64,000 nt of DNA from positions 30,370 to 94,369 of the IMG/VR virus record IMGVR_UViG_3300037808_002131. One strand, written 5' to 3'. Shown here piece by piece: positions 1,159-22,520 of the stretch (its first letter is position 1; each line of letters starts with the position of its first letter). The notes below the pieces were generated by a model, which was given only the letters and a program-made list of their open reading frames with translations, ran no database searches and was not told where the DNA came from. The stretch is from a virus. Both the position numbers and the translations under genes were made by a program.

Positions 1159-1543
1159 TATTTAAACTTTCTTGGATTTCACCATCAAATATAGTCCAAT
1201 AACTTAAGTCTATTTGTATATAAAGTTTTTTAGACTTATCGACTTCAGATTTATCTTCTTTCAAAATGAAAAATGGCTTTTTCCACTCTGCAATTATTTC
1301 TTTTTCAAAGTATATTTTTACTCCGCCATCTCCGTCGTCTTTTACATGAACGTCATATTTTCTTAGCGCTTTCCTAAGTTTAATTTTGTGGTCTGTGGTA
1401 AAATACTCCACGCCCTCTTCTTCTGGAAAGCATTCTTCCAGAGGAATTTCTAGAACTTCTAAGACGCCCCGAATAAAATTATATTTTTCGTCAGCTTCTA
1501 CCCGCCTTGCATCTTCTCTGTTTACATAAATTGAGAATTCCAC
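1151..1543 (-). CDS. Hypothetical protein (130 aa)
   Basis: Not recognised. It is a mixed alpha/beta, acidic protein beginning MEFSIYVNREDARRVEADEK with a later segment of alternating charged and hydrophobic residues (VKIYFEKEIIAEWKKP). No metal-binding or membrane motif is visible. It lies 15 bases downstream of the ribonucleotide reductase stop and overlaps the next gene by 8 bases, so it probably belongs to the same transcript. It could be an accessory factor to nucleotide metabolism, but only position supports that. Confidence 0.6.
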   Translation of the reverse strand: MEFSIYVNREDARRVEADEKYNFIRGVLEVLEIPLEECFPEEEGVEYFTTDHKIKLRKALRKYDVHVKDDGDGGVKIYFEKEIIAEWKKPFFILKEDKSEVDKSKKLYIQIDLSYWTIFDGEIQESLNNE

Positions 1544-5254: not shown

Positions 5255-5927
5255 AAGAACTATCCAAAGATAATATATACTCTTTTATTACTTCCTTAGA
5301 CTCTTGAATTAACTTTACATACTGAGATCTTGAAATACTCAAGGCCGTGAGAACAAAACTTATAGTATTTGGCTTATGCCCATTAAAGCCATACGTCATA
5401 TTTACTACTTTTTGATTTTTTTCAGGCAACGTATCAATTGCTTTTGATATTATTTCCGCCATTTGTTCTGACTCTACCCTTTCCAAAGCAGATAGAGAAG
5501 TTTCAATTATTGTCGGAATAACGTTTGTTTTGTAGGGCCTTACCTCTTTAGCCACTTTTAATGGGTAACGAATTGTTGAATGACAATTCGCAGATCTCGA
5601 CACCCTAGTACTTATATATTTATCAGCCCACCATCCAAAAATACCTTTTTCAGGATCGTAGGTTCTCAAAGCAAGAAGAAGGGCTTCCATACCATCCTGC
5701 TCTAAGTCTTCATGGTTCGAGAACTTTTTATATTTATTTGTCCTCACAGATACCAAATGCTTCAATTTTATAATACAATCATTTTGTATTGTCTTAATTT
5801 CTAGTATTTCATCAGGACACGTTGACTCTTTCAATCTTTCCGTAGCTTGAAGGTAGTCTGCGGCTATATCACTTACCTCTTGATTTCTCGCCTCACGGCT
5901 TTTTTTTGTAGATTTCTTGCCCATCAT
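5244..5927 (-). CDS. Phage RNA polymerase sigma factor (sigma-70 like, T4 gp55-like role)
   Basis: A 227-residue protein with a sigma region 2 core (HEDLEQDGMEALLLALRTYD, then GIFGWWADKYISTRV) and a C-terminal helix-turn-helix resembling region 4 (LPEKNQKVVNMTYGFNG). It lacks region 1.1, like group 4 and phage late sigma factors. Such proteins redirect the host polymerase to phage promoters, often late ones. The start reads ATG-ATG; an AAAGG ribosome site favours the second ATG at 5924. The 3' end overlaps the RNR start by 11 bases. The family call is good. Late-gene control is inferred from similarity in layout to T4-type phages. Confidence 0.8.
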   Translation of the reverse strand: MMGKKSTKKSREARNQEVSDIAADYLQATERLKESTCPDEILEIKTIQNDCIIKLKHLVSVRTNKYKKFSNHEDLEQDGMEALLLALRTYDPEKGIFGWWADKYISTRVSRSANCHSTIRYPLKVAKEVRPYKTNVIPTIIETSLSALERVESEQMAEIISKAIDTLPEKNQKVVNMTYGFNGHKPNTISFVLTALSISRSQYVKLIQESKEVIKEYILSLDSSFEK

Positions 5928-6113: not shown

Positions 6114-6434
6114 TTAAATATTCTTTAAGTCATCCGCAAGCTTCTTCTGCTCTATTTTATTATTATGATACTTATCCTCACCAACAAAATTAGCCGCAAG
6201 ATTCTCATCCCTTGCAGCAGCGCGCTTAAACTTCTTAGCATCCGTTTTTGCCTTCGCTATTGTTTCATGATGACCTAACGTCACAATATGCCTGCCAGAA
6301 CCGCCAGATACGAGTCGCTTTACTGTTCCAGAGGCATTGCATTTTGGACAAACGGTAGGAGGACTCGCCTTTATACTATAAAAGGCGTCCCATTCATGAT
6401 CACAATTAGTACATATATGTTCGTAAGTAGGCAT
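6114..6434 (-). CDS. FmdB-like zinc-ribbon protein
   Basis: A 106-residue protein whose N-terminus has the FmdB-family zinc ribbon: MPTYEHICTNC with Cys8 and Cys11, then VCPKC with Cys29 and Cys32. This fold starts almost invariably with M-P-x-Y-x-x-x-C. The rest is Lys- and Ala-rich and helical (IAKAKTDAKKFKRAAARDE). FmdB proteins are small putative regulators whose molecular role is poorly known. Its place beside replication and transcription genes would fit a nucleic-acid or protein-binding accessory role, but this is inference. Confidence 0.7.
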   Translation of the reverse strand: MPTYEHICTNCDHEWDAFYSIKASPPTVCPKCNASGTVKRLVSGGSGRHIVTLGHHETIAKAKTDAKKFKRAAARDENLAANFVGEDKYHNNKIEQKKLADDLKNI

Positions 6435-6440
6435 AATTTA

Positions 6441-6626
6441 TCACTTTTTTAAAACTAAACGCTTTTCAATTATTCGCAGCTCAATATCTTCAGTCCAATC
6501 ATTTTTGATTCTTTTTTTAAATCTTTCATTTACAATTCTAAAAACTAAAAAAACATCATCCTGATCAAGAGAATGCTCGACGCGAACTGCTACAGCGACG
6601 GTATCATCTTGATAATTTTTACTCAT
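6441..6626 (-). CDS. Hypothetical protein (61 aa)
   Basis: Not recognised. A 61-residue beta-rich looking protein (TVAVAVRVEHSLDQDDVFLV) ending in a basic tail (IIEKRLVLKK). It stops with TGA followed directly by TAA. It lies 6 bases upstream of the FmdB-like gene and 19 bases downstream of the DnaB-type helicase gene, in one run of genes. Position is the main support. Confidence 0.55.
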   Translation of the reverse strand: MSKNYQDDTVAVAVRVEHSLDQDDVFLVFRIVNERFKKRIKNDWTEDIELRIIEKRLVLKK

Positions 6627-6645
6627 TTCAGCACTCTCGACTCAT

Positions 6646-8097
6646 TTAACTCTCATGCCAACCTATTTTTTTCAAATAATCAGAAATGTCTATTGCACCA
6701 TTGTCACCAGCCGGGCCATTTTCAAAGTTTTCAGGCCGGTACGGCTCTTCCATTTCTGATATGGAGGCATTTTTAAAATTCTTTTTTAATACATGCCGCC
6801 CCAATTCTCCGTCTCGATTTTTAATAATATGATAAGTCAAATCTGAATATCTATACTCGTTCTTTCGAGTTTCTATTTGAATGCCTATATTTGCATGGTG
6901 CATTATCAATGAGGAGCGGCCAATTCTGTGTAGGCCAATCAAATCCGATGAGTCTTTTTTGCCCTTGTTTTGAGGTCGATTCAATTGAACTGCTGTCAAT
7001 GTAGCTATGTTGTGAACCCTTCCAAACTCATGCACCTTGCCTGCGATATAACCTAACTTAAGCCAATCGTCTCCAGAGAACTCACGATCTTCTAAAAGGC
7101 CTAAATAATCAACAACTACAAAGTCAGGCTGAAAGCTATCACAAGCCTCCTGATACCTACGCTCAATCTCCTCTACAGAAGCGCCTCGGGGCACATCAAT
7201 AATCTGAAACTCATAGGGATATCTATCAATAAATCTTACAGCCTGAGAAAGAGAGTCTGCCTGAAGCTGATTCAACTTACAATCTCTTAGTCCGTAAATT
7301 GGAACATCCGCCAGTCTAGACATCGTTCTTCTTGCGCAGGCCTCATACGGCATTTCTAATGAAAAGTATAAACAATTATATCCCTTTCCAAAATTTTCCG
7401 AATCAGTATATATTGTGTTCTGCTGCATCCACATTTGAATTGCCATGTTATTGAGAAACATACTTTTACCGCCCCCGGTTTCAGCGGCTACTATAACCAT
7501 TTCTCCAGGGCAAATTCCATTTTTTATATAGTCTAAAAAAGAATAGCCGGTCAGGATTCCTCTGCCCTTTTCCTCCTCACTTGCTTTTTGAAAATATTCA
7601 AGTTTAAACCGAGGCATATAAGCCTTCAAGGTCTCTTGCTTGAATACCTTCTTCTTCCCTTTCCTAATCTCTTTTAAGTTGACAATTTCTGACTGTAAAC
7701 TTTTAATAATTTTATCGTGATTTAAAGAAGCATCACTAAGATTTGTATTAGATAAAGAATTTCTTAGATTGTTTATTACTCTATTGCTATATTTGTTCTT
7801 TAACTGATCTAAGTAAAATCCAAAATCAGAATCACTATAATCAACAGAATCTAAAACACTCCAGACATTCAAAAAGTTATCAACTATATCTTGTCGCTCT
7901 TTAAATCTTGATTCTAGAACCTTGCGAGAGGGAACTTCCTTATAAGCTTTTGCAAAGCTTAATATTGACTTTGCGAACAAATAATATTCTTTAGAGAACA
8001 AGTTCTCATTGTAAGCGTCTAAGAAGTCAAGCGCGCGACGTTTATTTGTGGTAAGCGCTTTTAAAACTTGTAACTCACATTGGTCTGACTCAAGCAA
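6646..8097 (-). CDS. dnaB: Replicative DNA helicase, DnaB family
   Basis: Ring helicase that unwinds DNA at the fork. The RecA-like core fills the C-terminal two thirds of 483 residues. Walker A is AAETGGGKSMFLNN at about 205-218, Walker B is FVVVDYLGLLED near 330, and a family motif reads FSLEMPYEACARRTMSRLAD. A helical N-terminal domain of about 150 residues precedes it. The start codon is TTG, with an AGGG ribosome site 8 bases upstream; the upstream loader gene stops at 8099, so the two are nearly contiguous. Helicase next to loader is a common phage and bacterial pairing. It might equally be labelled a T4 gp41-type helicase. Confidence 0.87.
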   Translation of the reverse strand: MLESDQCELQVLKALTTNKRRALDFLDAYNENLFSKEYYLFAKSILSFAKAYKEVPSRKVLESRFKERQDIVDNFLNVWSVLDSVDYSDSDFGFYLDQLKNKYSNRVINNLRNSLSNTNLSDASLNHDKIIKSLQSEIVNLKEIRKGKKKVFKQETLKAYMPRFKLEYFQKASEEEKGRGILTGYSFLDYIKNGICPGEMVIVAAETGGGKSMFLNNMAIQMWMQQNTIYTDSENFGKGYNCLYFSLEMPYEACARRTMSRLADVPIYGLRDCKLNQLQADSLSQAVRFIDRYPYEFQIIDVPRGASVEEIERRYQEACDSFQPDFVVVDYLGLLEDREFSGDDWLKLGYIAGKVHEFGRVHNIATLTAVQLNRPQNKGKKDSSDLIGLHRIGRSSLIMHHANIGIQIETRKNEYRYSDLTYHIIKNRDGELGRHVLKKNFKNASISEMEEPYRPENFENGPAGDNGAIDISDYLKKIGWHES

Positions 8098-8098
8098 C

Positions 8099-8854
8099 TT
8101 AACGACCCTCTTTTCTAAAGTCTTTTCCTAGCACTGGAATCATACTTACGTAATTCATCAAGCTAGATAAGCTTAGCCCTATAGAGCCCTCAAAAGAGCC
8201 GGCTATATTTGGAGAATTTGTACACATAAAGATCGGTAATTTATTTTGAGCCCTACACCTAAAAACGTCTTCCATGATTCTACCAAAAAGATCAGACGAC
8301 GAAGCTGTCGGCATAAAGCGCGGATCAAACTCATCTATTACTAGAAAATCAACCATTAATAACTCATTACGAGCAGACATTTTATTCGAAGAATCATTGT
8401 AAATAAGATGGTTAACAATATCATTTACAGTTACATAAAGTGAAGAGAAGCCCCTCTCAACAGCTCTCTTTAAAATATTCGTGCAGGCAAATGTCTTACC
8501 AACCCCATGCGGCCCAGCAAAGCAAACGCAAACGCCGTCAGAATAAGCTTTATCGAAATCACTAGTAACTTTATTATAATAATTTAATAAAGTTGGATCT
8601 CCTTTAAAATCACGGCTCATTTCTAGCTTCCAATATGACAATGGAATATTGCTTTGTGCATATCTGGACAAAGCAGTATTAATTATCATGCACTTTTCAC
8701 ATGCCGAATCTAAAGATGCTGAATTTGATTTGCAGCTGTCACATTCCTTTAAAGTCGCAGACAGCTCATGAATCACTTTTCTTTGCGGGATCGTTACGAG
8801 AACTCCACTTTGAAAAACTTGGGTAGCCATAATTTGCTTGATTTGGTGCGGCAT
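8099..8854 (-). CDS. DnaC-like AAA+ ATPase, helicase loader
   Basis: Loads the replicative helicase onto DNA. An N-terminal cysteine cluster (CDSCKSNSASLDSACEKC) resembles the zinc motif in DnaC/DnaI loaders. Walker A is AGPHGVGKT near residue 115 and Walker B is FLVIDEFDPRF near 173. The C-terminal half matches an AAA+ core (CTNSPN). It is immediately followed by the DnaB-type helicase. The start is uncertain: ATG at 8854 or 8830 would overlap the upstream gene by 89 or 65 bases, while GTG at 8776 would overlap by 11. None has a strong ribosome site. Confidence 0.82.
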   Translation of the reverse strand: MPHQIKQIMATQVFQSGVLVTIPQRKVIHELSATLKECDSCKSNSASLDSACEKCMIINTALSRYAQSNIPLSYWKLEMSRDFKGDPTLLNYYNKVTSDFDKAYSDGVCVCFAGPHGVGKTFACTNILKRAVERGFSSLYVTVNDIVNHLIYNDSSNKMSARNELLMVDFLVIDEFDPRFMPTASSSDLFGRIMEDVFRCRAQNKLPIFMCTNSPNIAGSFEGSIGLSLSSLMNYVSMIPVLGKDFRKEGR

Positions 8855-9200
8855 GCATATGCCGCTTTAGATCGTTTATAATATTTTGTTTTCTAGACAA
8901 TAAAAGATCTTCAAATTTATCTTTATTTTCACTCAATTCTTGAAAATCATTAATAGACTGCTTTTCTACATATTCTCTTTCCTGCACTCTATCTTCATCT
9001 ATAGGTTCAGAACAAACGCTAGCAATCGAAGAAAATACGTTTGTCATTATTATATTTTCATGACAATTATTTATAATAAGAACATTGTCGCTATTCAAAG
9101 ATTTTAATATTGATTTGCCATCAGACCATTCGACCACAATACCTTCAGCAGAAAGGCCGTTTTTCAAGAAAATTTTAACTTTTTTTCCAATCAATTTCAT
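8766..9200 (-). CDS. Hypothetical protein with Sm-like N-terminal domain (144 aa)
   Basis: Residues 3-55 read like a small SH3/Sm-type barrel: VKIFLKNGLSAEGIVVEWSD followed by SILKSLNSDNVLIIN, the strand pattern of Hfq/LSm proteins. The rest is a charged, probably helical region with an extended end (NYGYPSFSKWSSRND). The 3' end overlaps the helicase-loader reading frame. Proteins of this fold often bind RNA or act as adaptors, but fold and function are inferred from pattern only. It sits in the replication run and shares one base with the upstream zinc-finger gene. Confidence 0.6.
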   Translation of the reverse strand: MKLIGKKVKIFLKNGLSAEGIVVEWSDGKSILKSLNSDNVLIINNCHENIIMTNVFSSIASVCSEPIDEDRVQEREYVEKQSINDFQELSENKDKFEDLLLSRKQNIINDLKRHMHAAPNQANYGYPSFSKWSSRNDPAKKSDS

Positions 9201-9460
9201 TAGAATCCAGACCTACACTTGTAACACAAATAAGTTCCATCTTTTTGATTTGGCTTAGTTATGTAAGAGTTAAAAAAATTGCATTTCACGCAATGCATGC
9301 CACCATTATATTTTTTTTCAACAACCTCATCATCTACATAATCTGAAAAGTCATCTATAAAATGGTACTCTTCTCCAGACTCATCTACATACCCCGGATA
9401 AACACAGGGGTAACAAAAGCCAGGATCAGAGTCAGATGGAGGCGGGGCACTATCACTCAT
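9200..9460 (-). CDS. Small zinc-binding protein (86 aa)
   Basis: Acidic N-terminal half (DESGEEYHFIDDFSDYVDDE) and a C-terminal zinc ribbon with two CxxC knuckles: CVKCNFF and CYKCRSGF. A third pair, CYPC, lies near residue 16. The function is not recognised. The acidic region plus ribbon layout resembles small transcription or DNA-interacting factors, though that is inference. Start and stop are flush with both neighbours (1 base overlap downstream, 2 base gap upstream). Confidence 0.65.
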   Translation of the reverse strand: MSDSAPPPSDSDPGFCYPCVYPGYVDESGEEYHFIDDFSDYVDDEVVEKKYNGGMHCVKCNFFNSYITKPNQKDGTYLCYKCRSGF

Positions 9461-9462
9461 GA

Positions 9463-10047
9463 CTATACAATTGTCTTTAAAACATCGTCCTCAAAGCCTA
9501 TTGCATGCAATTGATCAAAGAGCTGCTTATACTGACCAAGAGCCGAAGGCCCAGAGTAACTCAATGCCTGCTTGGCAAACGCTAAGTCACCATAAGTTCT
9601 AACAGGCAATCCCAAATTAGATACAATTAGTTGATAGTCCGGCGGAAGCTCTGTCGCCTTTGATATTTTTTGCATCTCCGCTCGGTATGCAAAAAACTCA
9701 TTAGCCAAACCATTTTGTAAAAAGAAAGATAATTTCCTAATTTTTATATTTTTTGGAATAAGCTTAAAATCATACACCCAATCAATATATTCTTTAATTG
9801 TGCGTGGGTTTGAAGTATTTAACATCCAATAAATTCTTTTAACTAAAACAATTTCAGTACATTTAGATGGCGGCCCTTGAAAGGAATAACAAAAATTACG
9901 GTTATAGGCCTCTTCAAATCTTTTAACAATATAAGCCAACATATGAACCTCCTTCCATTGAGAGGTTCTTAAAACTTCAATATCTTTAAACTTTAAAAAG
10001 AATTTTTGCCAAGGTTTAGATAAAGTCGTTGCCGTCATGTCTGTCAC
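9463..10047 (-). CDS. Hypothetical protein (194 aa)
   Basis: Not recognised. An aromatic-rich, mainly helical protein (KPWQKFFLKFKDIEVL; EYIDWVYDFKLIPKN) with no signal or membrane segment. The long start is GTG at 10047; an ATG at 10038 with GGTGA six bases upstream is the likelier start, giving 191 residues. It lies between the UvsW-like helicase (5 bases upstream) and the zinc-ribbon protein, so it is probably co-expressed with replication or recombination genes. Confidence 0.62.
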   Translation of the reverse strand: MTDMTATTLSKPWQKFFLKFKDIEVLRTSQWKEVHMLAYIVKRFEEAYNRNFCYSFQGPPSKCTEIVLVKRIYWMLNTSNPRTIKEYIDWVYDFKLIPKNIKIRKLSFFLQNGLANEFFAYRAEMQKISKATELPPDYQLIVSNLGLPVRTYGDLAFAKQALSYSGPSALGQYKQLFDQLHAIGFEDDVLKTIV

Positions 10048-10052
10048 CGCAC

Positions 10053-11516
10053 TTAAATTACAGTAAAGCCTTTCTCGCTAGAATATATTTTCTTTCGCTC
10101 TTTTGAGTGCTTACTTAAGTAATGAACATCATCATAAAAATCTATTACAGCTGCTCGTTTTTTGCCTTTCCAAGGGCGGATTACTCGACCTATTCTTTGT
10201 AGCGCACGAACTGAACTCTTCCCCGCACCTGCTAAAATTAACCCGGATAAAGCAGGCATATCCACACCAATATCAAATATCGTTGAGGCAATTATACAAT
10301 TCACCTCACCACTTTCTAATCTTTCTTTTGCTTTATTTCTAGCATCAATGGAGTCTTTTCCGCTTAATAAGATACAAGGAAGCTCTTCAGATATTTTTTT
10401 ATACAATATTTTTCCATGTGCAATTTGTGTGTAAAGAACTAAAACTTTGTAATTTTTATCAACAAGAATTTTAGCCCACTGAGATACCAATGAATTTCTA
10501 ATATCATTTTCGACAACATATTTTTTATAAATATGAGGGTATTTTTTGGTAAGCTTTTCTTTGTACTTTGGAACTTTTACAAATTTAATCAGAGGGGGCA
10601 CCAAGTATCCTTGATCAATAAGTGGGCTGGCCGATATATCAACGATTTTCGAACCAAAAATTGACTCTATAAGCAAGTCACTTCCATCGTCGCGCCAAGG
10701 GCTTGCACTCATTCCATAAATATATTCTGGATTTATATTTTTATAAATCTCTTGAATAGTATTACAAGAGGACATGTGGCACTCATCAAAAATGTTCAAC
10801 TTAACAGTTTTCATGAGCTTTCTTATGTCATTATACTTGCTATCACCTAAAGATTTTTCTTTGCCAATCTTATCTGTTGTAATCTGAGACTTTAACCCTA
10901 TGGCCTGTCCAATAGTCCAAACACTTACAATATTAATTTTTTTAATCTCGCAAAGTCCGTCTCCAATTACCCCAACATCTTCATCAAAAACTTCATTAAA
11001 AAAATTGTGAAATTGATAAAGAAGATCTGTGCCAATGACATAAATAAAAGTCGGCTTCCCAAAGTAAGCCGTGATCATAGCGGCCATAAGTGATTTTCCG
11101 CTACCAGTGGCTGACCTTATAACTCCGCAATCCTTATCCTTCACAACGCTAAGCACATCGTTTTGATAAGGCCTTGGTTCTTTTTTAATTTTCAATAAAT
11201 TATCATGTATATCAATTGAATTAATTGGCGTCTTCGGCGTTCTTCTGTCTTCAATGATTAAACTCTTACCGGCGTCGCTGTAAAAGTCTCTAACTCTATC
11301 CAAAAGTCCATATGGAAAAGTCAACCGCTTGGTTAATATACGATGTATTCCATCCCACCTTACAAAAGAACCATTCTTATAATAACCTTTGTACGCTTTG
11401 GTGTATTTCGCCCCCTGTACGTGAAATGATAGCTCATCGTCCAAAGATCGAATAAAAGTTATATCAGGCTCTTCTTCTATAGCGCAGCCATCTTTATTTA
11501 TAATTATTTTAGACAT
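10053..11516 (-). CDS. SF2 DNA helicase, UvsW-like
   Basis: ATP-driven helicase of superfamily 2, probably for recombination, fork rescue and origin R-loop removal as T4 UvsW does. The 487 residues carry an N-terminal domain of about 110 residues, then motif I SATGSGKS near 135, motif II DECHMSS near 240, motif III MSASPWRDD near 272, and motif VI QRIGRVIRPW near 445. Size and order match UvsW (about 500 residues). The ATG at 11516 follows a strong hairpin by only 8 bases, and no clear ribosome site is visible, so translation or transcription may be controlled there. Confidence 0.84.
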   Translation of the reverse strand: MSKIIINKDGCAIEEEPDITFIRSLDDELSFHVQGAKYTKAYKGYYKNGSFVRWDGIHRILTKRLTFPYGLLDRVRDFYSDAGKSLIIEDRRTPKTPINSIDIHDNLLKIKKEPRPYQNDVLSVVKDKDCGVIRSATGSGKSLMAAMITAYFGKPTFIYVIGTDLLYQFHNFFNEVFDEDVGVIGDGLCEIKKINIVSVWTIGQAIGLKSQITTDKIGKEKSLGDSKYNDIRKLMKTVKLNIFDECHMSSCNTIQEIYKNINPEYIYGMSASPWRDDGSDLLIESIFGSKIVDISASPLIDQGYLVPPLIKFVKVPKYKEKLTKKYPHIYKKYVVENDIRNSLVSQWAKILVDKNYKVLVLYTQIAHGKILYKKISEELPCILLSGKDSIDARNKAKERLESGEVNCIIASTIFDIGVDMPALSGLILAGAGKSSVRALQRIGRVIRPWKGKKRAAVIDFYDDVHYLSKHSKERKKIYSSEKGFTVI

Positions 11517-11524: not shown

Positions 11525-11562
11525 AAACTCACGGTTGCTGAATAACTAGCAACCGTGAGTTT
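11525..11562 (-). terminator. Strong 15-bp hairpin between the 66-aa gene and the UvsW-like helicase
   Basis: Perfect inverted repeat: the arm at 11525-11539 pairs with 11548-11562 around an 8-base loop. On the minus strand it is followed by a mixed T-run (TTTGTAGTTTT) and on the plus strand by TATTTTTG. It sits 8 bases before the helicase start, so it could end the tubulin/glycan transcript, or act as a leader structure for the helicase. Confidence 0.65.
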
Positions 11563-11584: not shown

Positions 11585-11785
11585 CTAGCTAGGCGCTTCA
11601 GGGTACATAAAAGATTGATCGTCATATATTACAACGCGATTCTTTTTTGCAACAAATCTATATAAGTTAGTATTTGTATTATTTTTCTTATCCTCTGATT
11701 TTTTATTCAGAGTTTTCTTATTATGAAGCTTATTCATGCACTTAAAAGCTGATAATTTATCAGCCTTTTCTTTTATCAATAACAT
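11585..11785 (-). CDS. Small basic protein of unknown function (66 aa)
   Basis: Not recognised. A Lys/Asn-rich 66-residue product (NKKSEDKKNNTNTNLYRF) ending in a more ordered-looking tail. Its ATG lies inside the tubulin-like gene, overlapping it by 26 bases in another frame, and a strong hairpin follows its stop. The low-complexity middle and the overlap leave doubt. It might be translated by coupling to the tubulin homologue, and could be a partner, but nothing in the sequence proves it. Confidence 0.45.
   Translation of the reverse strand: MLLIKEKADKLSAFKCMNKLHNKKTLNKKSEDKKNNTNTNLYRFVAKKNRVVIYDDQSFMYPEAPS
11744..11769 (-). terminator. Weak hairpin overlapping the tubulin-like stop codon
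   Basis: Minus-strand sequence AAAAGGCTGATAAATTATC then AGCTTTT forms a 6-bp GCTGAT/ATCAGC stem with an A-run before it and a short T-run after. The TGA of the tubulin-like gene lies in the left arm. The T-run is only four bases, so it could be a partial terminator or chance. Confidence 0.3.
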
Positions 11786-13163
11786 TTCTAGTCAATCGAC
11801 CAAACGCAGAGCTTTTCTTTGCAATTTTGTCTTTGACTTTTTGAGCCTGTGATACGGTCTTATCAGTTCCAGCATCAAGGTTTAATGCTAAATTACGAGT
11901 CAAATCTTTGTTTTTAATCGCCTCTAGATGGGTAGATACTTCTTTTTTAAGCTCAGTAACTCTTGAGTCCGGCAAGCTAAGCCCGCTAAAAAATGAATAG
12001 ACCTTAATTACATCTTCTTCAATTGTATCATCTACATATATGCCTCTGAAGACGCCAAGAGGAGTTTGAGCTACGTCTTGAACCATTGCCATAGCATAGT
12101 TTATCGATGAGCTTGGTATTTTATCCCAAACCTTTTTATTAGCCAAAAACATTGCTCCAATGTATTTTGTTTGCTTTAGGTCAAAGCCACTGGCCAATAA
12201 CCCTGACGTCATATTGCTAATGACTGCCTCAGCAATAGCTGTATCTTCTTCGTAATTATCAATTGTCATCCAACCATAGAGACTTAACCCTCCACCATCA
12301 GTGACAATCTTTGCCCACTCCATGGGATCCAAGGATTTGACATTTGAAGGCTCTGAGGAAAAGGTGTTAAATACATCTATAGGCTCAACAATGGCCTTAT
12401 TGCTAACCCGATAAAACTCCATGGGACTAACATCACTAAAGATGGTTTCGATCTTGGCGTTGTCCACAACAATTAAGTTGTTTATTCTCGACGTCTGAAC
12501 CTCTTTTGCCAGCTTAGAAAGCGCCTCTAAAGAGTTTTTCTTCGTCTGAGGATCCTCATTAGTCATTGGCAAAACCGTAACAACCAATACCGGCCTTCCT
12601 GTCGCTGACAGAATGTCAATCATAGTCTCTACAGACCCACTACCGCTGCCGCCACCTAGAGATGTACAAAGAATAAAGACCTGACAATCTCCAAGCTTAT
12701 CATTAACAAGCTCATTTATCTTGTCCTTGTGTGTTTCGGCAGCCTCAAAGCCAAGCTGAGGGTCCTTTGATGCCCCTCCAAGGCCATACTCAAGCAAACA
12801 TTTGTTTGACTCAGGTAGATTGATGTGAGTTAAATCTTGCTGCGCTGTATTAAATACAATTGCTTCATAGCCAAGATCATAAAAACACTCGGCTAGACGT
12901 GAGCCTGCCTGCCCAGAGCCAACAATTCCGAAATCAATACTTCTTGTGCGTCTTTCAACAATCCGAGGGGGCATATCTTCATCCTTTTGCACGGCCTCTT
13001 CGCCACTCTTTTGCTGCTTAGCTTCCATCTGCTTTTTTAAAGCTTGAAGCTTTGCCGCGTCTAATTCAAGCTCATCTTCAGAAACCATAACTACGGCCTC
13101 TTGTGAGATGTCATCGACAATATCATTTTGTGTGGCTTGCCCATTTTCAGTTTTAACAGTCAT
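11760..13163 (-). CDS. Tubulin/FtsZ-like GTPase
   Basis: A filament-forming GTPase of the tubulin superfamily. Residues 1-75 are an acidic, coiled-coil-like extension. The nucleotide fold starts at FGIVGSGQAGSRLAE (FtsZ G-box 1), continues with FNTAQQDL (FtsZ NTDAQAL), GLGGASKDPQLG, and the tubulin signature SLGGGSGSGSVE near residue 160 (FtsZ GGGTGTG). A long helix and a C-terminal activation-like domain follow. At 467 residues it is longer than FtsZ or PhuZ because of the extension. Its ATG overlaps the upstream epimerase stop as ATGA with a GAGG ribosome site, so the two are coupled. PhuZ in phiKZ-type phages positions DNA or the phage nucleus; a similar spatial role is inference here. Confidence 0.82.
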   Translation of the reverse strand: MTVKTENGQATQNDIVDDISQEAVVMVSEDELELDAAKLQALKKQMEAKQQKSGEEAVQKDEDMPPRIVERRTRSIDFGIVGSGQAGSRLAECFYDLGYEAIVFNTAQQDLTHINLPESNKCLLEYGLGGASKDPQLGFEAAETHKDKINELVNDKLGDCQVFILCTSLGGGSGSGSVETMIDILSATGRPVLVVTVLPMTNEDPQTKKNSLEALSKLAKEVQTSRINNLIVVDNAKIETIFSDVSPMEFYRVSNKAIVEPIDVFNTFSSEPSNVKSLDPMEWAKIVTDGGGLSLYGWMTIDNYEEDTAIAEAVISNMTSGLLASGFDLKQTKYIGAMFLANKKVWDKIPSSSINYAMAMVQDVAQTPLGVFRGIYVDDTIEEDVIKVYSFFSGLSLPDSRVTELKKEVSTHLEAIKNKDLTRNLALNLDAGTDKTVSQAQKVKDKIAKKSSAFGRLTRNVIDKRKG

Positions 13164-14113
13164 TCATTTCCTCTTATATACCATTTATTTTTAAGGTACC
13201 AATTAATAGAAAAAGCTATAGTTTCTTTATATTTCGCAGATGGTTTCCAGCCAATACTTTTAAGTTTATCACTATTAATTGCGTATCGAGATGCTAAATT
13301 ATTATCACCTATTATTTCCACCAAATCGTATCCCTGATCAACGCAGGTGCAGATTTCATGAAACATTTCAATATCAGAAAACTCATAACCAGCAGAAACA
13401 TTAAAGGTTTCATTTTGATTGGCATTCATCATAATTTGGGTTAGTGCGTTGCATAGATCTCCAACGTACAGCCACTCTCTTTGAGTCAAGCCATTATCAT
13501 ATATCTTGGTCTTTTTTTTCTCTAGAATATTCTTCAAAACTCCAGGGATAAAGCTATCGGGGAATTGCCTTGGCCCAAATAAATCACAAGATCTTAAAAT
13601 ATTGTAATTTAGACCAAATTCAGAACATGCAGCCCTAATAAGAACCTCTGCCGCCACCTTACTTGCAGCAAAAGAATTAATAGGACTTAATTCTGATGCT
13701 TCATCGTGACTTTCTCGACACTTATTTCCATAAACCTCATAGTTGCTTAAATAAAAAATACGCTTTACCTCTGCCTTCACGCAAGCATTAATAACATTCG
13801 ACGTGCCAATTATATTAGTGTCTTGAAATGAATTAAACTGACAATTTTTACCATACGCAGGACGCTCTTCAGCGGCATGAATTACATAATCAGGTTTTTC
13901 TAAAGAAAAAACAACATCCAAAAAATGATTATCTAATATATTTCCAATATAAAATGTATGCCCTTTGTTTGCATAAACATTATGCAGCCCGAAATGTTTT
14001 TTCACTTTATCTAAGCTTACAAATACATAATCTAATTTATTATGTAAAGATTTGCGAATAAAGTTACTCATAACAAAGCCGCATGAGCCAGTAATAAGCA
14101 CTTTTTTAGTCAT
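13160..14113 (-). CDS. Short-chain dehydrogenase-like NDP-sugar epimerase/dehydratase with altered active site
   Basis: An extended SDR protein of 317 residues, closest in pattern to dTDP-glucose 4,6-dehydratase and related epimerases (NCQFNSFQDTNIIGTSNVI; FGPRQFPDSFIPGVL; QREWLYVGD). Two key places are changed. The glycine-rich loop reads TGSCGFVMS, so the third Gly of GxxGxxG is Met. The catalytic YxxxK reads FAASK, with Phe in place of Tyr. Redox chemistry is therefore doubtful; it may be a binding or regulatory paralogue or use another residue. It sits at the end of the sugar cluster, coupled to the tubulin gene. No clear ribosome site precedes the ATG. Confidence 0.75.
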   Translation of the reverse strand: MTKKVLITGSCGFVMSNFIRKSLHNKLDYVFVSLDKVKKHFGLHNVYANKGHTFYIGNILDNHFLDVVFSLEKPDYVIHAAEERPAYGKNCQFNSFQDTNIIGTSNVINACVKAEVKRIFYLSNYEVYGNKCRESHDEASELSPINSFAASKVAAEVLIRAACSEFGLNYNILRSCDLFGPRQFPDSFIPGVLKNILEKKKTKIYDNGLTQREWLYVGDLCNALTQIMMNANQNETFNVSAGYEFSDIEMFHEICTCVDQGYDLVEIIGDNNLASRYAINSDKLKSIGWKPSAKYKETIAFSINWYLKNKWYIRGNE

Positions 14114-14128: not shown

Positions 14129-15061
14129 TTATAAATTATCTTGATACCACGTAATTGTTTTTACCAAGCCAGTCAAAAGGTTTGTATCAGCTTCAAAATT
14201 TAACATTTCTTTTGCACGAGAAACATCAAGCCTTCGTTTAGGCTGACCGTCCGAAACTTCTCCTGTAAATAAAACCTCACCATCAAATCCGACTAATTTA
14301 GCTATTAAGTGCGCAAGCTCTTTAATTGATATTTCTTTTCCTGTACCTAAATTTATTGGTAATTCAGTATCTAGGCTTTGATATACAGCAGATACAATTG
14401 CCTTAGCCGCATCTTCCGCATAAAAGAACTCTCTCGTCGCAAGTCCGGTCCCCCAACACCTTACGGTGGACAATCCCTTATCGACAGCATTAACAAATTT
14501 ATTTATTAATGCAGGAATAACGTGACTATTAACAAGATCAAAATGATCATGCGGGCCAAATAAATTAACAGGAATTAAATGAGCGCCAGCAATGCCGTAT
14601 TGCTCTCTGTAAGTATTGCCAAGCATCATCAGCGTTCTTTTAGCCTGACCATATGGCGCATTTGTGCTCTCAGGGTACCCATTAAATATATCGTCTTCTT
14701 TAAATGGAGTAGGACAATTTAAAGGATAAGAACATACGCTACCAAGCGTGTACACTCTTTTTACGTTAAACCTTCGAGCAGATTCAAATATATTAATACC
14801 CATTAGGGTATTATCTCTTAAAAAGTCTACTGGGCGATTTTTATTTGCCAATATACCACCACATACCGCAGCCATATGAACGACTACGTCAGGGCATGTT
14901 ATGTTAAACAAATGATCGCATTCAACACCAGAAACTAAATCAAATTTCGAACCAACACAAGTAATCGTGTCATTTAATTCTTTATCTTGTATGTGCTTAT
15001 CAAAGGCAGCTTCAACGTGTTTTCCTAAAAACCCCGTACCTCCTGTAATTAAAATATTCAC
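14129..15061 (-). CDS. fcl: GDP-L-fucose synthase
   Basis: Turns the GDP-4-keto-6-deoxymannose made by GMD into GDP-L-fucose using NADPH. Evidence in 310 residues: TGGTGFLGKHV nucleotide loop, the family block CSYPLNCPTPFKEDD, the catalytic YGQAK (YxxxK), and NLFGPHDHFDLVNSHVIPAL, all characteristic of this enzyme rather than generic epimerases. The start is GTG at 15061 with an AAGGAAG ribosome site. It lies directly downstream of gmd, so the two complete the fucose branch. Length matches the bacterial enzyme (about 320). Confidence 0.9.
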   Translation of the reverse strand: MNILITGGTGFLGKHVEAAFDKHIQDKELNDTITCVGSKFDLVSGVECDHLFNITCPDVVVHMAAVCGGILANKNRPVDFLRDNTLMGINIFESARRFNVKRVYTLGSVCSYPLNCPTPFKEDDIFNGYPESTNAPYGQAKRTLMMLGNTYREQYGIAGAHLIPVNLFGPHDHFDLVNSHVIPALINKFVNAVDKGLSTVRCWGTGLATREFFYAEDAAKAIVSAVYQSLDTELPINLGTGKEISIKELAHLIAKLVGFDGEVLFTGEVSDGQPKRRLDVSRAKEMLNFEADTNLLTGLVKTITWYQDNL

Positions 15062-15080
15062 CGTTGCTTCCTTTAAATAA

Positions 15081-16067
15081 TTATAAGTTATCTGCTAGTA
15101 TTTTTTCTTTTTTAGCTAAATTCAAATCAGCTTCAATCATTTCGTCAACTAATTGAGCGAATGAGTACTCTGGACTCCACCCAAGTTCAGCTTTTATTTT
15201 AGTCGGATCTCCTTGCAAAGCATCAACCTCTGCTGGTCTTAAATACTTAGCATCAAATTTTACATAATCTTTCCAATCTAATTCTAACTTAGAAAAGACC
15301 AATTCAAGAAACTCTTTGACAGAGTGCATTCCTCCTGTCGCAACAACATAGTCCTTTGGCTCAGAGGCTGTTAAGATCATGTAGAGCGCCTTAGCAGTAT
15401 CCTTAGCGTGCCCCCAGTCGCGCTTAGCATCCAAATTGCCAAGCCTCAATTCATCCTGGAGCCCTAGCTTTATTCTGGTGGCTGCCCTTGTTATCTTTCT
15501 TGTTACAAAATTCTCAGCTCGGCGGGGGCTCTCGTGATTGAACGAAATTGCGTTAACCGCAAACATACCATATGACTCACGATAATTAATCGTAGACCAA
15601 TACGCCGCTAACTTGGCACACGCATAAGGGCTTCTTGGGTGGAAGGTTGTATCTTCATTTTGAGGAGGGGGCGTAGACCCATAAAGCTCGGAAGTGCTGC
15701 ATTGCAAGAACCTAGTCTCAGGGCTATACTTTCTAACAGCCTCTAGGCACCTGACCACACCCGTGCCAGTGACGTCCATTGCGTATTCTGGAACATCAAA
15801 GCTAACTCTTACATGAGATAAAGCGCCACAATTGAAAAACAAATCTGGCTTTGTATCAGATATAATATTAACCAAAGAAGAGTAATCTGTAAGATCGCCA
15901 TATACCAGATTAAGATTAGGGTGATTATAAATATGGTCAATTCTCTGTGTGTTAAAATTACTACTGCTTCTCTTTACACCATGAACCTCGTAGCCCTCCT
16001 TCAGCAGAAGCTCAGCCAAATAAGAACCCGTTTGACCTGTAATCCCTGTCAAGCATGCTTTTTTCAT
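15081..16067 (-). CDS. gmd: GDP-mannose 4,6-dehydratase
   Basis: Converts GDP-mannose to GDP-4-keto-6-deoxymannose, the first step to GDP-fucose. Diagnostic segments: LTGITGQTGSYLAE, HGVKRSSSNFNTQRIDH (NADP-specific Arg), SELYGSTPPPQNEDTTFHPR, catalytic SPYACAK (YxxxK), and the GMD block FNHESPRRAENFVTRKIT. At 328 residues it is somewhat shorter than E. coli GMD (about 370). An ATG with a GAGGG ribosome site begins it. The substrate GDP-mannose must come from the host or another region, since no mannose enzymes lie in the window. Confidence 0.93.
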   Translation of the reverse strand: MKKACLTGITGQTGSYLAELLLKEGYEVHGVKRSSSNFNTQRIDHIYNHPNLNLVYGDLTDYSSLVNIISDTKPDLFFNCGALSHVRVSFDVPEYAMDVTGTGVVRCLEAVRKYSPETRFLQCSTSELYGSTPPPQNEDTTFHPRSPYACAKLAAYWSTINYRESYGMFAVNAISFNHESPRRAENFVTRKITRAATRIKLGLQDELRLGNLDAKRDWGHAKDTAKALYMILTASEPKDYVVATGGMHSVKEFLELVFSKLELDWKDYVKFDAKYLRPAEVDALQGDPTKIKAELGWSPEYSFAQLVDEMIEADLNLAKKEKILADNL

Positions 16068-16079
16068 AAAACCCTCAAA

Positions 16080-17000
16080 TCAAAAATAATAACTAACTAC
16101 GCGCCTCAAGCCCTCTTCGAAATCAACCTTTTTCTTCCAGCCCAAAAGCTCAAGATTGCGGCTATACAATCTTGTTCTATTAAGCTCACGAGGCACTGCT
16201 GGCTTATAAATGATTGAACTTACAGAATCCGTAACTTTCAATAATGAATTCGCTATTTCATTAACACTTACTTCTTCATTTGAAGATACATTATACACCC
16301 CTCGACCTTTTTCTATTAACAATTCAAAAGCATCAATCACATCAGAAATATAAACAAAGTCTCGGGTCTGATTTCCGGTTCCAAAAATAAATAGATCTTT
16401 ATCATTAAGAATGTTATCTATAAATATAGAAATAACACCTGCCTCTCCTTTAGGAGACTGACGCTCCCCAAAAATATTAGCTGGCCTTAAAATACTATAA
16501 TCTAGATTATGCAATTCTGAATATAATTCAATGTACCTCTCCGAGGTCAGCTTTGACAATCCATAAGGGGAGCGCGGATTCGTCGCTGACTTTTCTATCC
16601 AAGGAAGCATCTCGTAAGGGCAATAAATCGCCCCACCGGTTGACGTGTAAATTAGCTTTTTTATGTCATATTTAACACAACATTTTAAAACATTTAAAGT
16701 GCCTATTATATTTTCATTTGCATCATTAATTGGATTTTTTATAGAGTCTCTAAGATTTATCTGCGCTGCCAAGTGAAATACATAATAAAATTTATTTTTT
16801 TTAAAGACTGAATCTAATTTATTTATTTTTTTAATGTCACAAAGCTCAAAAGATGCATCTGGATGAATGTTTTCCCTAAATCCTGTTGATAGGTTATCTA
16901 TGACAGTTACTCGATAACCAAGATCTATTAATCTATCAACAAGATGACTGCCGACAAAGCCCGCACCCCCTAAAACCGCAACTTCAAAACCCTTACCCAT
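16080..17000 (-). CDS. NAD-dependent NDP-sugar 4-epimerase (GalE-like SDR)
   Basis: A 306-residue extended SDR with an intact site: GGAGFVGSHLVD loop, VIDNLSTG after the second strand, FHLAAQINLRDSI, STGGAIYC, catalytic SPYGLSK and ILRPANIFGERQ. This pattern is typical of UDP-glucose/UDP-GlcNAc 4-epimerases that follow GalE. It could supply galactose- or GalNAc-type donors to the glycosyltransferases of the cluster. The exact sugar cannot be set from sequence. No good ribosome site precedes the ATG. Confidence 0.82.
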   Translation of the reverse strand: MGKGFEVAVLGGAGFVGSHLVDRLIDLGYRVTVIDNLSTGFRENIHPDASFELCDIKKINKLDSVFKKNKFYYVFHLAAQINLRDSIKNPINDANENIIGTLNVLKCCVKYDIKKLIYTSTGGAIYCPYEMLPWIEKSATNPRSPYGLSKLTSERYIELYSELHNLDYSILRPANIFGERQSPKGEAGVISIFIDNILNDKDLFIFGTGNQTRDFVYISDVIDAFELLIEKGRGVYNVSSNEEVSVNEIANSLLKVTDSVSSIIYKPAVPRELNRTRLYSRNLELLGWKKKVDFEEGLRRVVSYYF

Positions 17001-17025
17001 ATATAAAAATTAATTATTGAAATAA

Positions 17026-17721
17026 TTATCTAAAAAACATAGTCAAATCGCTGGATATTAACTCGTCATATATTTTTTTCGTATATTTATTTTTAAATTG
17101 CTGCCTTTTAATATTATAATCAGAATCTGTTAGTTTTTTACTAAAATATCTTTTATCAATTTCCATATTTATAACGTCATCTTTTTTCACCATACTTAAG
17201 CAATTATTTAATCGTGGCATGTCAAACGAATTATCATTTGAAAAATAATTTATTAACTTGCGGAACCCCATACTCGTGGCTCCCTTTTTAAGATCTTCAT
17301 ATTTTACACATAAAAATTGACTATCTTTAATTTTTAAATATTTTTCATAATGATTTTTTAATAAGTTTATTTGGGTATCAACTAAATTATCAGTTATTTC
17401 CTCAACTTCACAGCTTAATAGGGAATAAATAACATCATCAGGATTTCGATATAAATATACAATATCACTATGGCTAACAACAAGATCAGAGTGTATGTCA
17501 TGATCGTGAAACCACATAAACCCACTCTTTCTTTGACTGTCTTTTAAATAACTAACCGGGCCAACTCTTAATCTAGGCCTATTAAAGTAAAGCTCTAATA
17601 CACAATTTAACCAATTACTTCCGCTCCTCGGGTAACTTATAAGCAAAGGAACGCTTTCCATTCTTTCATCATAAGATCTTCCGTTTGTCTTAAACATTTC
17701 TTTATAATCCACTTTAGTCAT
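17026..17721 (-). CDS. Sulfotransferase-domain protein
   Basis: A 231-residue protein of the PAPS-dependent sulfotransferase fold. The 5'-phosphosulfate loop reads LISYPRSGSNWLN at about 28-40, and the 3'-phosphate block is VYLYRNPDDVIYSLL near residues 88-102, the standard RxPxDxxxS-type arrangement. In this cluster it would add sulfate to a glycan. No PAPS synthesis gene lies in the window, so donor would come from the host. No signal or membrane segment is visible, suggesting cytosolic action on a precursor. Confidence 0.78.
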   Translation of the reverse strand: MTKVDYKEMFKTNGRSYDERMESVPLLISYPRSGSNWLNCVLELYFNRPRLRVGPVSYLKDSQRKSGFMWFHDHDIHSDLVVSHSDIVYLYRNPDDVIYSLLSCEVEEITDNLVDTQINLLKNHYEKYLKIKDSQFLCVKYEDLKKGATSMGFRKLINYFSNDNSFDMPRLNNCLSMVKKDDVINMEIDKRYFSKKLTDSDYNIKRQQFKNKYTKKIYDELISSDLTMFFR

Positions 17722-17729
17722 TTTTATAT

Positions 17730-18659
17730 TTAAAAATCTATATCAAAAGGCCAAATCTCTAAACCATGAATACTCATACACAAATCATTTGATATGAAAA
17801 CATTTTTAATATTACTATTTGCCCGCTTCATATCATATAGCGATATCATGCCCGGAGTAGAGCCTCCAATAATCCAATCGCCTTTAAGTGCTAGCCCCCT
17901 ACCAAACGGCTGACGTGAAATATTTTGCGTTAAATGAGTGTTTGTCATATCTTTGGCAGGAATACGCTTAATACTATAACGCTTTTTAATACTGCCATTT
18001 TTTTTATCTGTAATTAAAATCTGATTATTCTTAGTATCATTCATAATAAGAGAATTCTCATTTAAAAATCTAGTATTATGTGTACCTTTCGGTATTTGCG
18101 AAAAACTAATAATCTTTTGTTTGTCTATTTTAAACAAACGCGGCTGATTTGTTCCCGAAAAGAATATACCAGAATCATTAACAAATACATTATTTATATG
18201 ATGGCGATCACCCGTCGGTATATCAACGCTTTGTAGAGGGTTAAACTCTTTAATTGACTTCAGCCCCCTTACGGAATAACCTTTTATAAATTTACGAGAC
18301 AATAAATCAAAACATAAAATTACATCTCTGCCTGTGGAAGATAAATACAATTTATCTTTATGAATATATGTTTCATGACAGCTTTCTAAATATTCATTAC
18401 TGTATGAGGCTCTTCTTTTGAAATCAAAGCTATAAAAAACAATACTACTTGAGGAGGCAACAATTACATTGTCTTTATAAATACATATGCCTCTTAGCCC
18501 TCTATCAGCCCCTCGGCCACTCCAATTTATTTTCTCATTCCAATCTATGACGCATTTATATTTATTAGAATTTAAATCAACTAAATATAACCCGCCATGG
18601 CTAACTCTTTTCGCGCTACGCACTATGTGGCTTGCTATAATATTTGGATATTTTTTCAT
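17730..18659 (-). CDS. Beta-propeller-like protein of unknown function (309 aa)
   Basis: A run of four-strand blade-like units (GICIYKDNVIVASSSSIVFY; KDKLYLSSTGRDVILCFDL; NENSLIMNDTKNNQILI) suggests a beta propeller. A conserved-looking HHINNVFVN and THNTRFLN may mark a site. No catalytic motif is recognised. Its ATG overlaps the stop of the upstream sulfotransferase-like gene (ATGA), so expression is coupled, and both could act on one glycan or target protein. Enzyme and scaffold roles are both possible. Confidence 0.6.
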   Translation of the reverse strand: MKKYPNIIASHIVRSAKRVSHGGLYLVDLNSNKYKCVIDWNEKINWSGRGADRGLRGICIYKDNVIVASSSSIVFYSFDFKRRASYSNEYLESCHETYIHKDKLYLSSTGRDVILCFDLLSRKFIKGYSVRGLKSIKEFNPLQSVDIPTGDRHHINNVFVNDSGIFFSGTNQPRLFKIDKQKIISFSQIPKGTHNTRFLNENSLIMNDTKNNQILITDKKNGSIKKRYSIKRIPAKDMTNTHLTQNISRQPFGRGLALKGDWIIGGSTPGMISLYDMKRANSNIKNVFISNDLCMSIHGLEIWPFDIDF

Positions 18660-19393
18660 TTATTTTTTATACTTAAGTATTTATCTTTCAGCTCCCGATC
18701 AATCACTTTTACCTCATCACTAGAAAGTAAAGAAAAGCTCTTATTCGAAGGCTTAAGTCTAGCGCTAGTATTTGCAGAAGCATTGCCATACCTATAATTA
18801 GTTTTATTAACTACATAATTACCCTCAGCCTTAAAGGCTTCCGATCTAGAATTTATATAACTTAATACCCCTGAACTGCCTGCATCACAAAACTGCTCTA
18901 AAGTTAATTTAACAACAGGTTTATTTAAAGATTTAATTTTATTAAAATAGTGATTGTAATCATATATCAACCTTTCAACAGGCATATAGCTATTTCTATT
19001 CATTGATTTTGCCAGCCTTATAAAGCTTTCAAATAAAGCCTTGGGCTCCCTGAATACAGCTACAATTATATCTGAATTGTCAATTACATGATTTAAATAT
19101 TTAAGCATTTTTGGGTCTTGAGGTCTATAAGTCTCCTTAACACCTCCAAATAAAAAACTATCGCTCTCTACCCTTCTTTTAACCCCACTCATCAAATCAT
19201 CAATTCCATTAAATTTGAAATGGATTAGCTTATCAAATGTTAATTGACCAGGGTTTGATAGCAAAATCCAATGAGGCTCTGACAAACAAAAGCCATTTTT
19301 CATTGAATTAAATGTATTACAAGCAATAGTTGTTCCTGAATGAGGCAAACCTAAAACAGATATAACTTTATTTGACTTTAAATTTAGTCTCAT
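18656..19393 (-). CDS. Sulfotransferase-like P-loop protein
   Basis: A 245-residue protein whose N-terminus carries a phosphosulfate-type loop, VLGLPHSGTTIACN at about 13-26, then a second block VAVFREPKALFESFIRLA near 110 that fits the 3'-phosphate region. Both points match the sulfotransferase fold, but they diverge from the 17026 gene. It is coupled by ATGA overlaps both to the methyltransferase upstream and to the beta-propeller gene downstream. A kinase of similar P-loop form is a less likely alternative. Confidence 0.65.
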   Translation of the reverse strand: MRLNLKSNKVISVLGLPHSGTTIACNTFNSMKNGFCLSEPHWILLSNPGQLTFDKLIHFKFNGIDDLMSGVKRRVESDSFLFGGVKETYRPQDPKMLKYLNHVIDNSDIIVAVFREPKALFESFIRLAKSMNRNSYMPVERLIYDYNHYFNKIKSLNKPVVKLTLEQFCDAGSSGVLSYINSRSEAFKAEGNYVVNKTNYRYGNASANTSARLKPSNKSFSLLSSDEVKVIDRELKDKYLSIKNK

Positions 19394-19938
19394 ATCGACG
19401 CCACTAAAATGTCATTCTTAAAAATAGTTTTCTTAAGCTTAGGATCTAGATACCCATGCTCATAATGAAACTGGTAATTTGGATTTATATCCAAGAGCAA
19501 CGTTTTGACTTTATCGAGAGAAATATCCCTCCACTCACCGCCCATAAGTCGAACATCATCAACCAAAATGGTATGATTTTTATTTGAATGATTTTTAATT
19601 AAATTAAGCTCTTGGTACAAGGGAACATCAACCGGACCTCTAGCCGTATCTCCCTCACTCCAATGGCCGTCTAGCCAAAAAACACAGGGCTCCGTCACCT
19701 TACTTAATATTTCTTTTAATTTAACAGCAGAATCGCCAAAGATAGGAAAAACTTTTCGATCATTAGCAAATCTATTGAGCGCTCTCTTATAAAAATGATC
19801 AGCTAACTCAATGGTATAAACCTCACGAAACCCAACAGCAGAGGCCATCGCTGCCGTATTACCAAGGTGAGTACCAGTCTCAACAAAAATATTCCCTTTA
19901 CTCTTGTACTTTCTCAATGTTTCCAAATCAATAGGCAT
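19390..19938 (-). CDS. SAM-dependent methyltransferase (182 aa)
   Basis: A class I methyltransferase fold: motif I NIFVETGTHLGNTAAM, an acidic end to strand 2 (VYTIELAD), and FWLDGHWSEGDTARG then ILVDDVRLMGGEW, a pattern seen in small sugar or macrolide O-methyltransferase relatives. It would plausibly methylate a sugar in the glycan built by this cluster. A good AGGAG ribosome site precedes the ATG. It overlaps the next gene by 4 bases. Confidence 0.72.
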   Translation of the reverse strand: MPIDLETLRKYKSKGNIFVETGTHLGNTAAMASAVGFREVYTIELADHFYKRALNRFANDRKVFPIFGDSAVKLKEILSKVTEPCVFWLDGHWSEGDTARGPVDVPLYQELNLIKNHSNKNHTILVDDVRLMGGEWRDISLDKVKTLLLDINPNYQFHYEHGYLDPKLKKTIFKNDILVASI

Positions 19939-19947
19939 AATAAGCTC

Positions 19948-20892: not shown

Positions 20893-20940
20893 GTCACCAA
20901 TTCAACCATAGTTAAGGGGCAAATATAAAACCTTAACCAT
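20893..20940 (-). other. Severed N-terminal segment of the glycosyltransferase with in-frame TGA
   Basis: GGAGGTGCTGAAC leads into ATG at 20940; the codons MVKVLYLPLNYG are followed by TGA at 20904-20902, then IGD and the GTG at 20892. The residues match how this glycosyltransferase family usually begins, so the segment is a real part of the gene. TGA is used as a normal stop elsewhere in the window. Confidence 0.78.
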
Positions 20941-20985
20941 GTTCAGCACCTCCTTTCTCTTGCAATATTAATGAAATAATATTAA

Positions 20986-21717: not shown

Positions 21718-21723
21718 AATGCT

Positions 21724-22467: not shown

Positions 22468-22520
22468 AATTTCCTTAAACTTGTTATTTATAGGATATAT
22501 CAGAACTATTAAGAGGTATA
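22468..22520 (-). promoter_or_regulatory. Divergent intergenic region between GT2 and GT10 genes
   Basis: Only 53 bases separate two genes that read away from each other. On the minus strand TATAAATA occurs at 22492-22485, 18 bases before the GT2 start, matching the T4-type late consensus. On the plus strand the only clear element is an AGAGG ribosome site before the GT10 ATG. Promoter function is a guess from AT-rich DNA. Confidence 0.3.

Follow-up and report, generated by a model that had tools for sequence, protein, structure and literature searches.

To our knowledge, phage tubulins have been studied almost only in jumbo phages that form a nucleus and carry their own polymerase. Two subgroups are recognised, PhuZ-like and TubZ-like (PMC7824862; PMC3678025), and earlier papers mention tubulins of huge phages other than phiKZ (PMC7162821; PMC8314001). 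The tubulin described here is encoded in a 64,000-nucleotide stretch of an uncultured virus record, referred to below as the window. Its best match over the whole core, in sequence as well as in fold, is TubZ (TubZ-Bt, 2xka; RepX/TubZ-Bc, 4ei7), with which it shares 18–25% identity, a D-x-x-E T7 loop, and a long C-terminal helix and tail. Unlike TubZ, it occurs without TubR or tubS, carries an N-terminal extension and a C-terminal peptide of its own, and is encoded in jumbo phages by a gene that closes a glycan island. With PhuZ of phiKZ, 201phi2-1 and the Chimalliviridae it has in common the jumbo-phage setting and, in broad terms, the notion of a viral filament inside the cell.

Among 50,697 isolate phage records, the only relative is gp138 of Bacillus phage G, annotated as 'putative FtsZ-like' (25%, E 1e-19). 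Phage G resembles the clade described here in that RNAP-beta and chimallin were not found in the tests and in that its tail sheath matches; gp138 differs in its length of 376 aa without the N-terminal extension, in its gene neighbourhood, and in occupying a separate branch of the tree. A closer entry, A0A6J5RW92 from an uncultured Caudovirales phage, belongs to the same family (54% identity) and is listed in UniProt as 'FtsZ Cell division GTPase'. This automatic annotation shows that the sequence family is already in the databases, not that it has been recognised as a lineage. No description of this jumbo-phage tubulin lineage, or of a glycosyltransferase–tubulin fusion in jumbo phages, was found in the open-access papers searched.

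Fold, active site and terminal peptides of the window tubulin

The window ORF is a genuine tubulin/FtsZ-superfamily GTPase by homology, as the first-pass annotation had proposed from the sequence alone, and is the only tubulin in the whole 94,369-bp IMG/VR record. It matched the Pfam Tubulin family (PF00091) at 65.3 bits (E 1.1e-17; cut-off 33), and its residues 73–411 matched the RepX/TubZ structure 4ei7 at E 2e-18 (phmmer). The score against the FtsZ equivalog TIGR00065 is 67.7 bits for a cut-off of 295. In the window copy TubZ-like_C (PF22453) scored 25.1 bits, short of its cut-off of 26, which three relatives (L106, L139 and L142) exceed.

An AlphaFold2 model was calculated from an alignment with 32 phage relatives, giving an overall pLDDT of 79.8 with a core mostly above 90 and disordered ends. 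Foldseek ranked TubZ first (2xka, E 3e-25; also 4ei7), followed by CetZ and FtsZ, and the predicted core (pLDDT >85–90) shows the two-domain tubulin fold. The nucleotide-binding and catalytic elements are preserved throughout the family. N105/D110, the GGA loop, N235, the T1 loop, the G-box and D279/E282 are invariant or nearly so in the family alignment. GGG[ST]G is present in 87 of the 87 distinct clade tubulins, and the D-x-x-E/D of the T7 loop, which completes the active site of the neighbouring subunit, in 86. Between close pairs of clade tubulins dN/dS is 0.031–0.034, indicating strong purifying selection. Loss of GTP contacts or clustering with a metabolic Rossmann family had been named at the outset as grounds for giving up the assignment; the GTP-contact motifs are intact and the fold is that of TubZ, CetZ and FtsZ, and a metabolic Rossmann enzyme is therefore ruled out. 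The window tubulin very probably polymerises into filaments.

Table 1. Features of the tubulin locus in window coordinates.
Feature	Position	Strand	Remarks
Sigma-70-like factor	5244..5927	-	Sigma70_r2 21.7 bits, cut-off 24 (sub-threshold); orthologues in synteny
UvsW-like helicase	10053..11516	-	Conserved downstream anchor; Pfam ResIII, Helicase_C, weak UvsW_N; synteny
Perfect 15-bp hairpin, terminator-like	11525..11562		Between the tubulin and UvsW genes
Tubulin/FtsZ-superfamily gene	11760..13163	-	467 aa, ATG start; Pfam, AlphaFold2, Foldseek, 87 distinct relatives
Basic C-terminal peptide KxSxFGxL...(V/I)DKRK, residues 450–467	11763..11816	-	Conserved; family form K-x-S-x-F-G-(K/R)-L...DRRK
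T7 catalytic loop LDPMEW (D-x-x-E), residues 278–283	12315..12332	-	D279 invariant, E282 in at least 90%
Tubulin signature G-box GGGSGSG, residues 170–176	12636..12656	-	GGG[ST]G in all distinct clade tubulins
T1 nucleotide loop GSGQAG, residues 82–87	12903..12920	-	G82, G84, G87 invariant (family alignment)
N-terminal extension, residues 1–74	12942..13163	-	Acidic part, then predicted helix KLxALKxK
SDR-type epimerase/dehydratase epi1	13160..14113	-	Pfam Epimerase 149.6 bits; conserved neighbour upstream of tubulin
Glycan island	14129..30056	-	22521..23477 on +; ORFs; Pfam for 14129, 15081, 27406 and 28935, rest by eye

Two conserved peptides flank the core on flexible tethers. A 75-residue acidic extension had been noted at the N-terminus. 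About 74 residues do precede the core, but the acidity is limited to the first 35, which carry a net charge of -9 and a conserved E-x-x-x-DD-x-S; residues 36–74 form a mildly basic predicted helix and a linker. Conserved columns of the extension are E13, D17, D18, K38, L39, L42 and K43 in the family alignment, and pLDDT falls below 50 at residues 1–17, 20–34 and 54–70. At the other end, the last 27 residues carry a net charge of +8 and include the C-terminal peptide, KSSAFGRLTRNVIDKRKG, in which S452, F454, D463 and R465 are invariant in the family alignment. The strict C-terminal pattern is found in 80 of the 87 distinct clade tubulins, and the peptide is retained even where core identity has fallen to ~39%. 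Tethered C-terminal peptides of FtsZ recruit partners. The tail of TubZ likewise recruits a cofactor (PMC3678025). By analogy, the two peptides of the window tubulin are candidate docking sites for cargo or for an adaptor.

The tubulins of two relatives (L106 and L134) contain an intein directly after GSGQAG in the nucleotide loop, and the insert of L106 has Pfam intein-splicing and LAGLIDADG homing-endonuclease domains. Inteins favour conserved active-site positions, and a position in the T1 loop fits an active nucleotide site. Intein-sized inserts recur in other core genes of the lineage. By eye, the 1231-aa ribonucleotide reductase of the window (1559..5254) has an intein-like interruption at roughly residues 330–690. 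SDR proteins of 662–695 aa in L020, L029 and L033 contain intein-like sequence, and the UvsW proteins of 889 and 905 aa in L032 and L138 have intein-sized insertions.

A core gene of an uncultured jumbo-phage lineage

Nearly all members of a large, uncultured lineage of jumbo phages carry the tubulin, which is one of their core genes. A profile search of IMG/VR recovered 29 full-length relatives with 40–64% identity in contigs of up to 446 kb, together with more distant phage tubulins. Altogether, 87 distinct relatives occupy one syntenic place in contigs from uncultured phages, the largest of which measures 481 kb. Some of the loci represent one virus assembled twice, and the distinct-protein counts allow for this. 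A search for the UvsW neighbour, which does not presuppose the tubulin, yielded the best 80 of 185 loci; 79 of these include upstream sequence, and in 78 the tubulin is present at the syntenic place. The exception is an 88-kb fragment (L138) in which epi1 and UvsW adjoin directly (together 6367..10050) and no tubulin occurs there or elsewhere in the fragment. Since the gene is missing from this fragment, the tubulin is dispensable at least once. The natural absence makes L138 a useful comparison genome.

The syntenic order runs from glycan genes through epi1, tubulin, UvsW, a 194-aa gene, a 144-aa gene, and DnaC-like, DnaB and FmdB-like genes to sigma and RNR. The first-pass annotation had set the phage apart from phiKZ-type phages by a sigma factor and T4-like tail genes. 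The sigma factor is real and has syntenic orthologues, with Sigma70_r4 above cut-off in 7 of the 17 clade records searched, but the window copy itself falls below the Pfam cut-off. The tail part holds as far as a contractile-tail sheath (PHROG 2839, E 1e-13), whose closest isolate match comes from Bacillus phage G rather than T4.

The expected lack of a phiKZ-type polymerase was borne out: the C-terminal domain of RNAP-beta (PF00562) was not found in 21 clade contigs, the longest of 481 kb, whereas the phiKZ control was positive. Chimallin (PF25677) was not found in eight large clade contigs and the window record, using a Phikzvirus-specific model that may miss distant chimallins. A tyrosine integrase was likewise not found in eight large contigs. 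The pattern of absence of these three is firm by repetition, in contigs that are fragments without completeness estimates and whose lack of a gene does not prove its absence from the virus. The phages of the lineage encode sigma factors, with no phiKZ-type polymerase found, and are probably lytic and contractile-tailed. Searches with the single protein gave no match in viral contigs or genome contigs, and the family alignment gave none in genome contigs, so that no host could be assigned through binned contigs.

A core tubulin in phages without a detectable nuclear shell or polymerase of their own makes the question of the giant-phage cytoskeleton separable from that of the phage nucleus, and testable. 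The reading that we favour, and consider moderately probable from the combined analyses, is that the protein is a polymerising tubulin and core gene of lytic jumbo phages, whose cytomotive filament would position phage cargo during infection through the conserved C-terminal peptide. GTP-driven filaments would assemble head to tail during infection and move or position genomes, capsids, or a zone of replication and assembly. The basic C-terminal and acidic N-terminal peptides on their flexible tethers would dock this cargo or an adaptor, as the tails of TubZ and FtsZ do. The cargo role, borrowed from PhuZ and TubZ, is our best inference.

Metabolic genes accompany the phage genes at one locus (L002, record positions 1–15500). 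An isocitrate lyase (3..1235, cut by the contig end) and a malate synthase (2062..3657), together the glyoxylate shunt, lie amid phage genes, and malate synthase is also found in another clade contig (G003). Further along, at 6499..8961, genes for IMPDH/GMP reductase, thymidylate synthase and dihydrofolate reductase follow consecutively; comparable genes occur near the tubulin gene 138 of phage G.

The glycan island and a fused glycosyltransferase

By functions assigned mostly by eye, the island upstream of the tubulin gene encodes a GDP-mannose dehydratase, epimerases, sulfotransferase-like proteins, and fucosyl- and other glycosyltransferases. An SDR gene lies directly upstream of the tubulin in 51 of the 91 distinct loci and is at most three genes away in 20 more. 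In the window, the tubulin ATG overlaps the epi1 stop (ATGA), with AGAGGA just upstream inside the 3' end of epi1. From this overlap with the epimerase, the gene had been read as coupled to a sugar operon. The overlap is present, but the gap to the upstream gene ranges from -15 to 1583 nt across relatives, which rules out ATGA coupling as a conserved trait. The sugar link itself goes further than the first-pass annotation had it, through a glycosyltransferase–tubulin fusion elsewhere in the clade, and the glycan-island neighbourhood is conserved. The window epi1 itself departs from the usual SxDE and YxxxK residues (SNYEVYG for STDEVYG, SFAASK for PYSASK), and four others (L027, L032, L035 and L036) also deviate from YxxxK. 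Most orthologues retain the catalytic residues, which rules out a conserved inactive partner.

In one branch, which does not include the window's own phage, the tubulin carries a GT-B glycosyltransferase (PF00534) as an in-frame N-terminal fusion. This arrangement is found in seven distinct proteins, 800–831 aa long. The E-x7-E motif of the fused enzyme is intact, and its nearest solved relatives are group-1 glycosyltransferases. The fused forms make up one clade (support 100/99) in which identity of the glycosyltransferase domain is 41–76%, and the fusion is therefore old and kept. Its recurrence in separate assemblies (L145/L173, L146/L148 and L149/L150) and in seven divergent versions rules out an assembly artefact. 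Sister lineages encode the same glycosyltransferase as a separate gene, mostly overlapping the tubulin start. AlphaFold predicted two well-folded domains (residues 1–340 and 425–775) joined by a low-confidence linker, with a pTM of 0.47, and the best structural matches of the whole model are TubZ. At the junction, every fused gene has an in-frame ATG with a Shine-Dalgarno sequence (GAGGA or AAGGA) a few bases upstream of it, and free tubulin is therefore predicted to be made besides the fusion.

We know of no described filament-forming glycosyltransferase of tubulin type. If it is what the sequences suggest, the fusion would directly connect sugar transfer with a tubulin filament at the genetic level. 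The closest parallel is the control of FtsZ assembly by the glucosyltransferases OpgH and UgtP according to the level of UDP-glucose (PMC3723540). OpgH and UgtP are individual host proteins for which no relationship to the phage glycosyltransferase has been demonstrated, whereas the phage enzyme is covalently joined to the tubulin in a single polypeptide in one branch. Since the gene closes the glycan island across the clade and is fused to a glycosyltransferase in one branch, the filaments would operate beside the phage glycan machinery. These sequence features suggest a role in glycosylation as a real lead. As a tentative extension, the tubulin filament may be physically and functionally part of the glycosylation apparatus. 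In the branch with the fusion, enzyme-bearing subunits would mix with free tubulin from the internal start to give filaments decorated with the enzyme, by which sugar transfer would be placed or gated in virion assembly or host takeover.

An alternative to cargo positioning is a scaffold or sugar-sensing filament, the assembly of which positions the glycosylation machinery or is gated by it, as UgtP and OpgH gate FtsZ. The OpgH/UgtP precedent (PMC3723540), the glycan neighbourhood of nearly all loci, and a fusion of single origin that kept its E-x7-E across a large divergence all point this way. However, the fusion is limited to one branch and fusion of overlapping neighbour genes can be neutral, and adjacency to sugar genes could be positional, as the neighbouring enzyme varies (SDR, GT or others). 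We regard this alternative as doubtful.

Comparison with TubZ, PhuZ and FtsZ

A tree of 44 proteins (LG+C20+F+G4) resolved the family as one clade (support 100/99), PhuZ as another on a very long branch (100/100) and FtsZ as a third. The family groups with plasmid TubZ, phage G and other phage tubulins at 80/60 support. The first-pass suggestion of a separate branch is thus upheld, the family being distinct in the tree from PhuZ, FtsZ and plasmid TubZ, with a sister relationship to PhuZ not rejected when the two were held together in the AU test (p 0.188).

As no PDB entry is closer than TubZ in fold or sequence, the filament might serve DNA partition, segregating a plasmid-like phage genome in pseudolysogeny, in the manner of phage c-st and Bacillus plasmids. 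Such a role has been assigned to some jumbo-phage tubulins by Iyer et al. (PMC7824862), and the TubZ-like_C domain exceeds its cut-off in some relatives, such as L106. The neighbourhood argues otherwise. A small ORF or TubR lies directly upstream in 7 of the 7 plasmid TubZ loci examined, whereas no TubR-like gene holds that place in the 91 distinct loci of the family, where an SDR or a glycosyltransferase is found instead. No tubS iteron array was detected in the window or in L012, L037 and L039; the same search recovered arrays in two plasmid TubZ loci (L009 and L011) and none in a third (L005). Partition of the TubZ type is unlikely because TubR and tubS are absent, and with no tyrosine integrase found in eight large contigs, partition of a prophage or plasmid is not supported where these were searched. 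The family tubulin may work like TubZ, yet outside the TubZ partition system.

An ordinary PhuZ orthologue, forming a spindle that centres a phage nucleus or replication factory, would suit the jumbo-phage setting, a weak PHROG match to PhuZ and the outcome of the AU test. Given that outcome, it is by its features that the family is set apart from PhuZ. PF22334, the C-terminal domain that scores 128 bits in phiKZ PhuZ, is absent from the window tubulin, and the C-terminus is basic where PhuZ has an acidic C-terminal knuckle. PhuZ also forms a single distant clade, and the markers of the Chimalliviridae, chimallin and the multi-subunit polymerase (PF25677 and PF00562), were not found in the tested clade contigs with a positive phiKZ control. 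Orthology with PhuZ in this sense is quite improbable.

An anti-host factor that poisons or co-opts host FtsZ, blocking division and enlarging the cell for a big phage, would draw on the FtsZ-like fold and on a conserved C-terminal peptide that, as in FtsZ, is borne on a linker. This too is quite improbable, as the protein's own catalytic loop is intact and strongly constrained, more than a decoy needs, and the clade peptide, which by eye we take to be unlike that of FtsZ, counts against it.

Cargo positioning by a cytomotive filament thus remains the reading that we prefer for the clade. Some of the more distant phage tubulins are found in other settings. One of them (L041, in contig G017; 30%) lies in a 190-kb contig where, in contrast to the window clade, an open frame of 2203 aa strongly matches RNAP-beta (E 3e-41). 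Others (L048/L049 at 8187, and L043/L046 at 7905) have an ORF of 100–107 aa directly upstream, in a TubR-like placement, and by this arrangement may be true TubZ-type partition modules.
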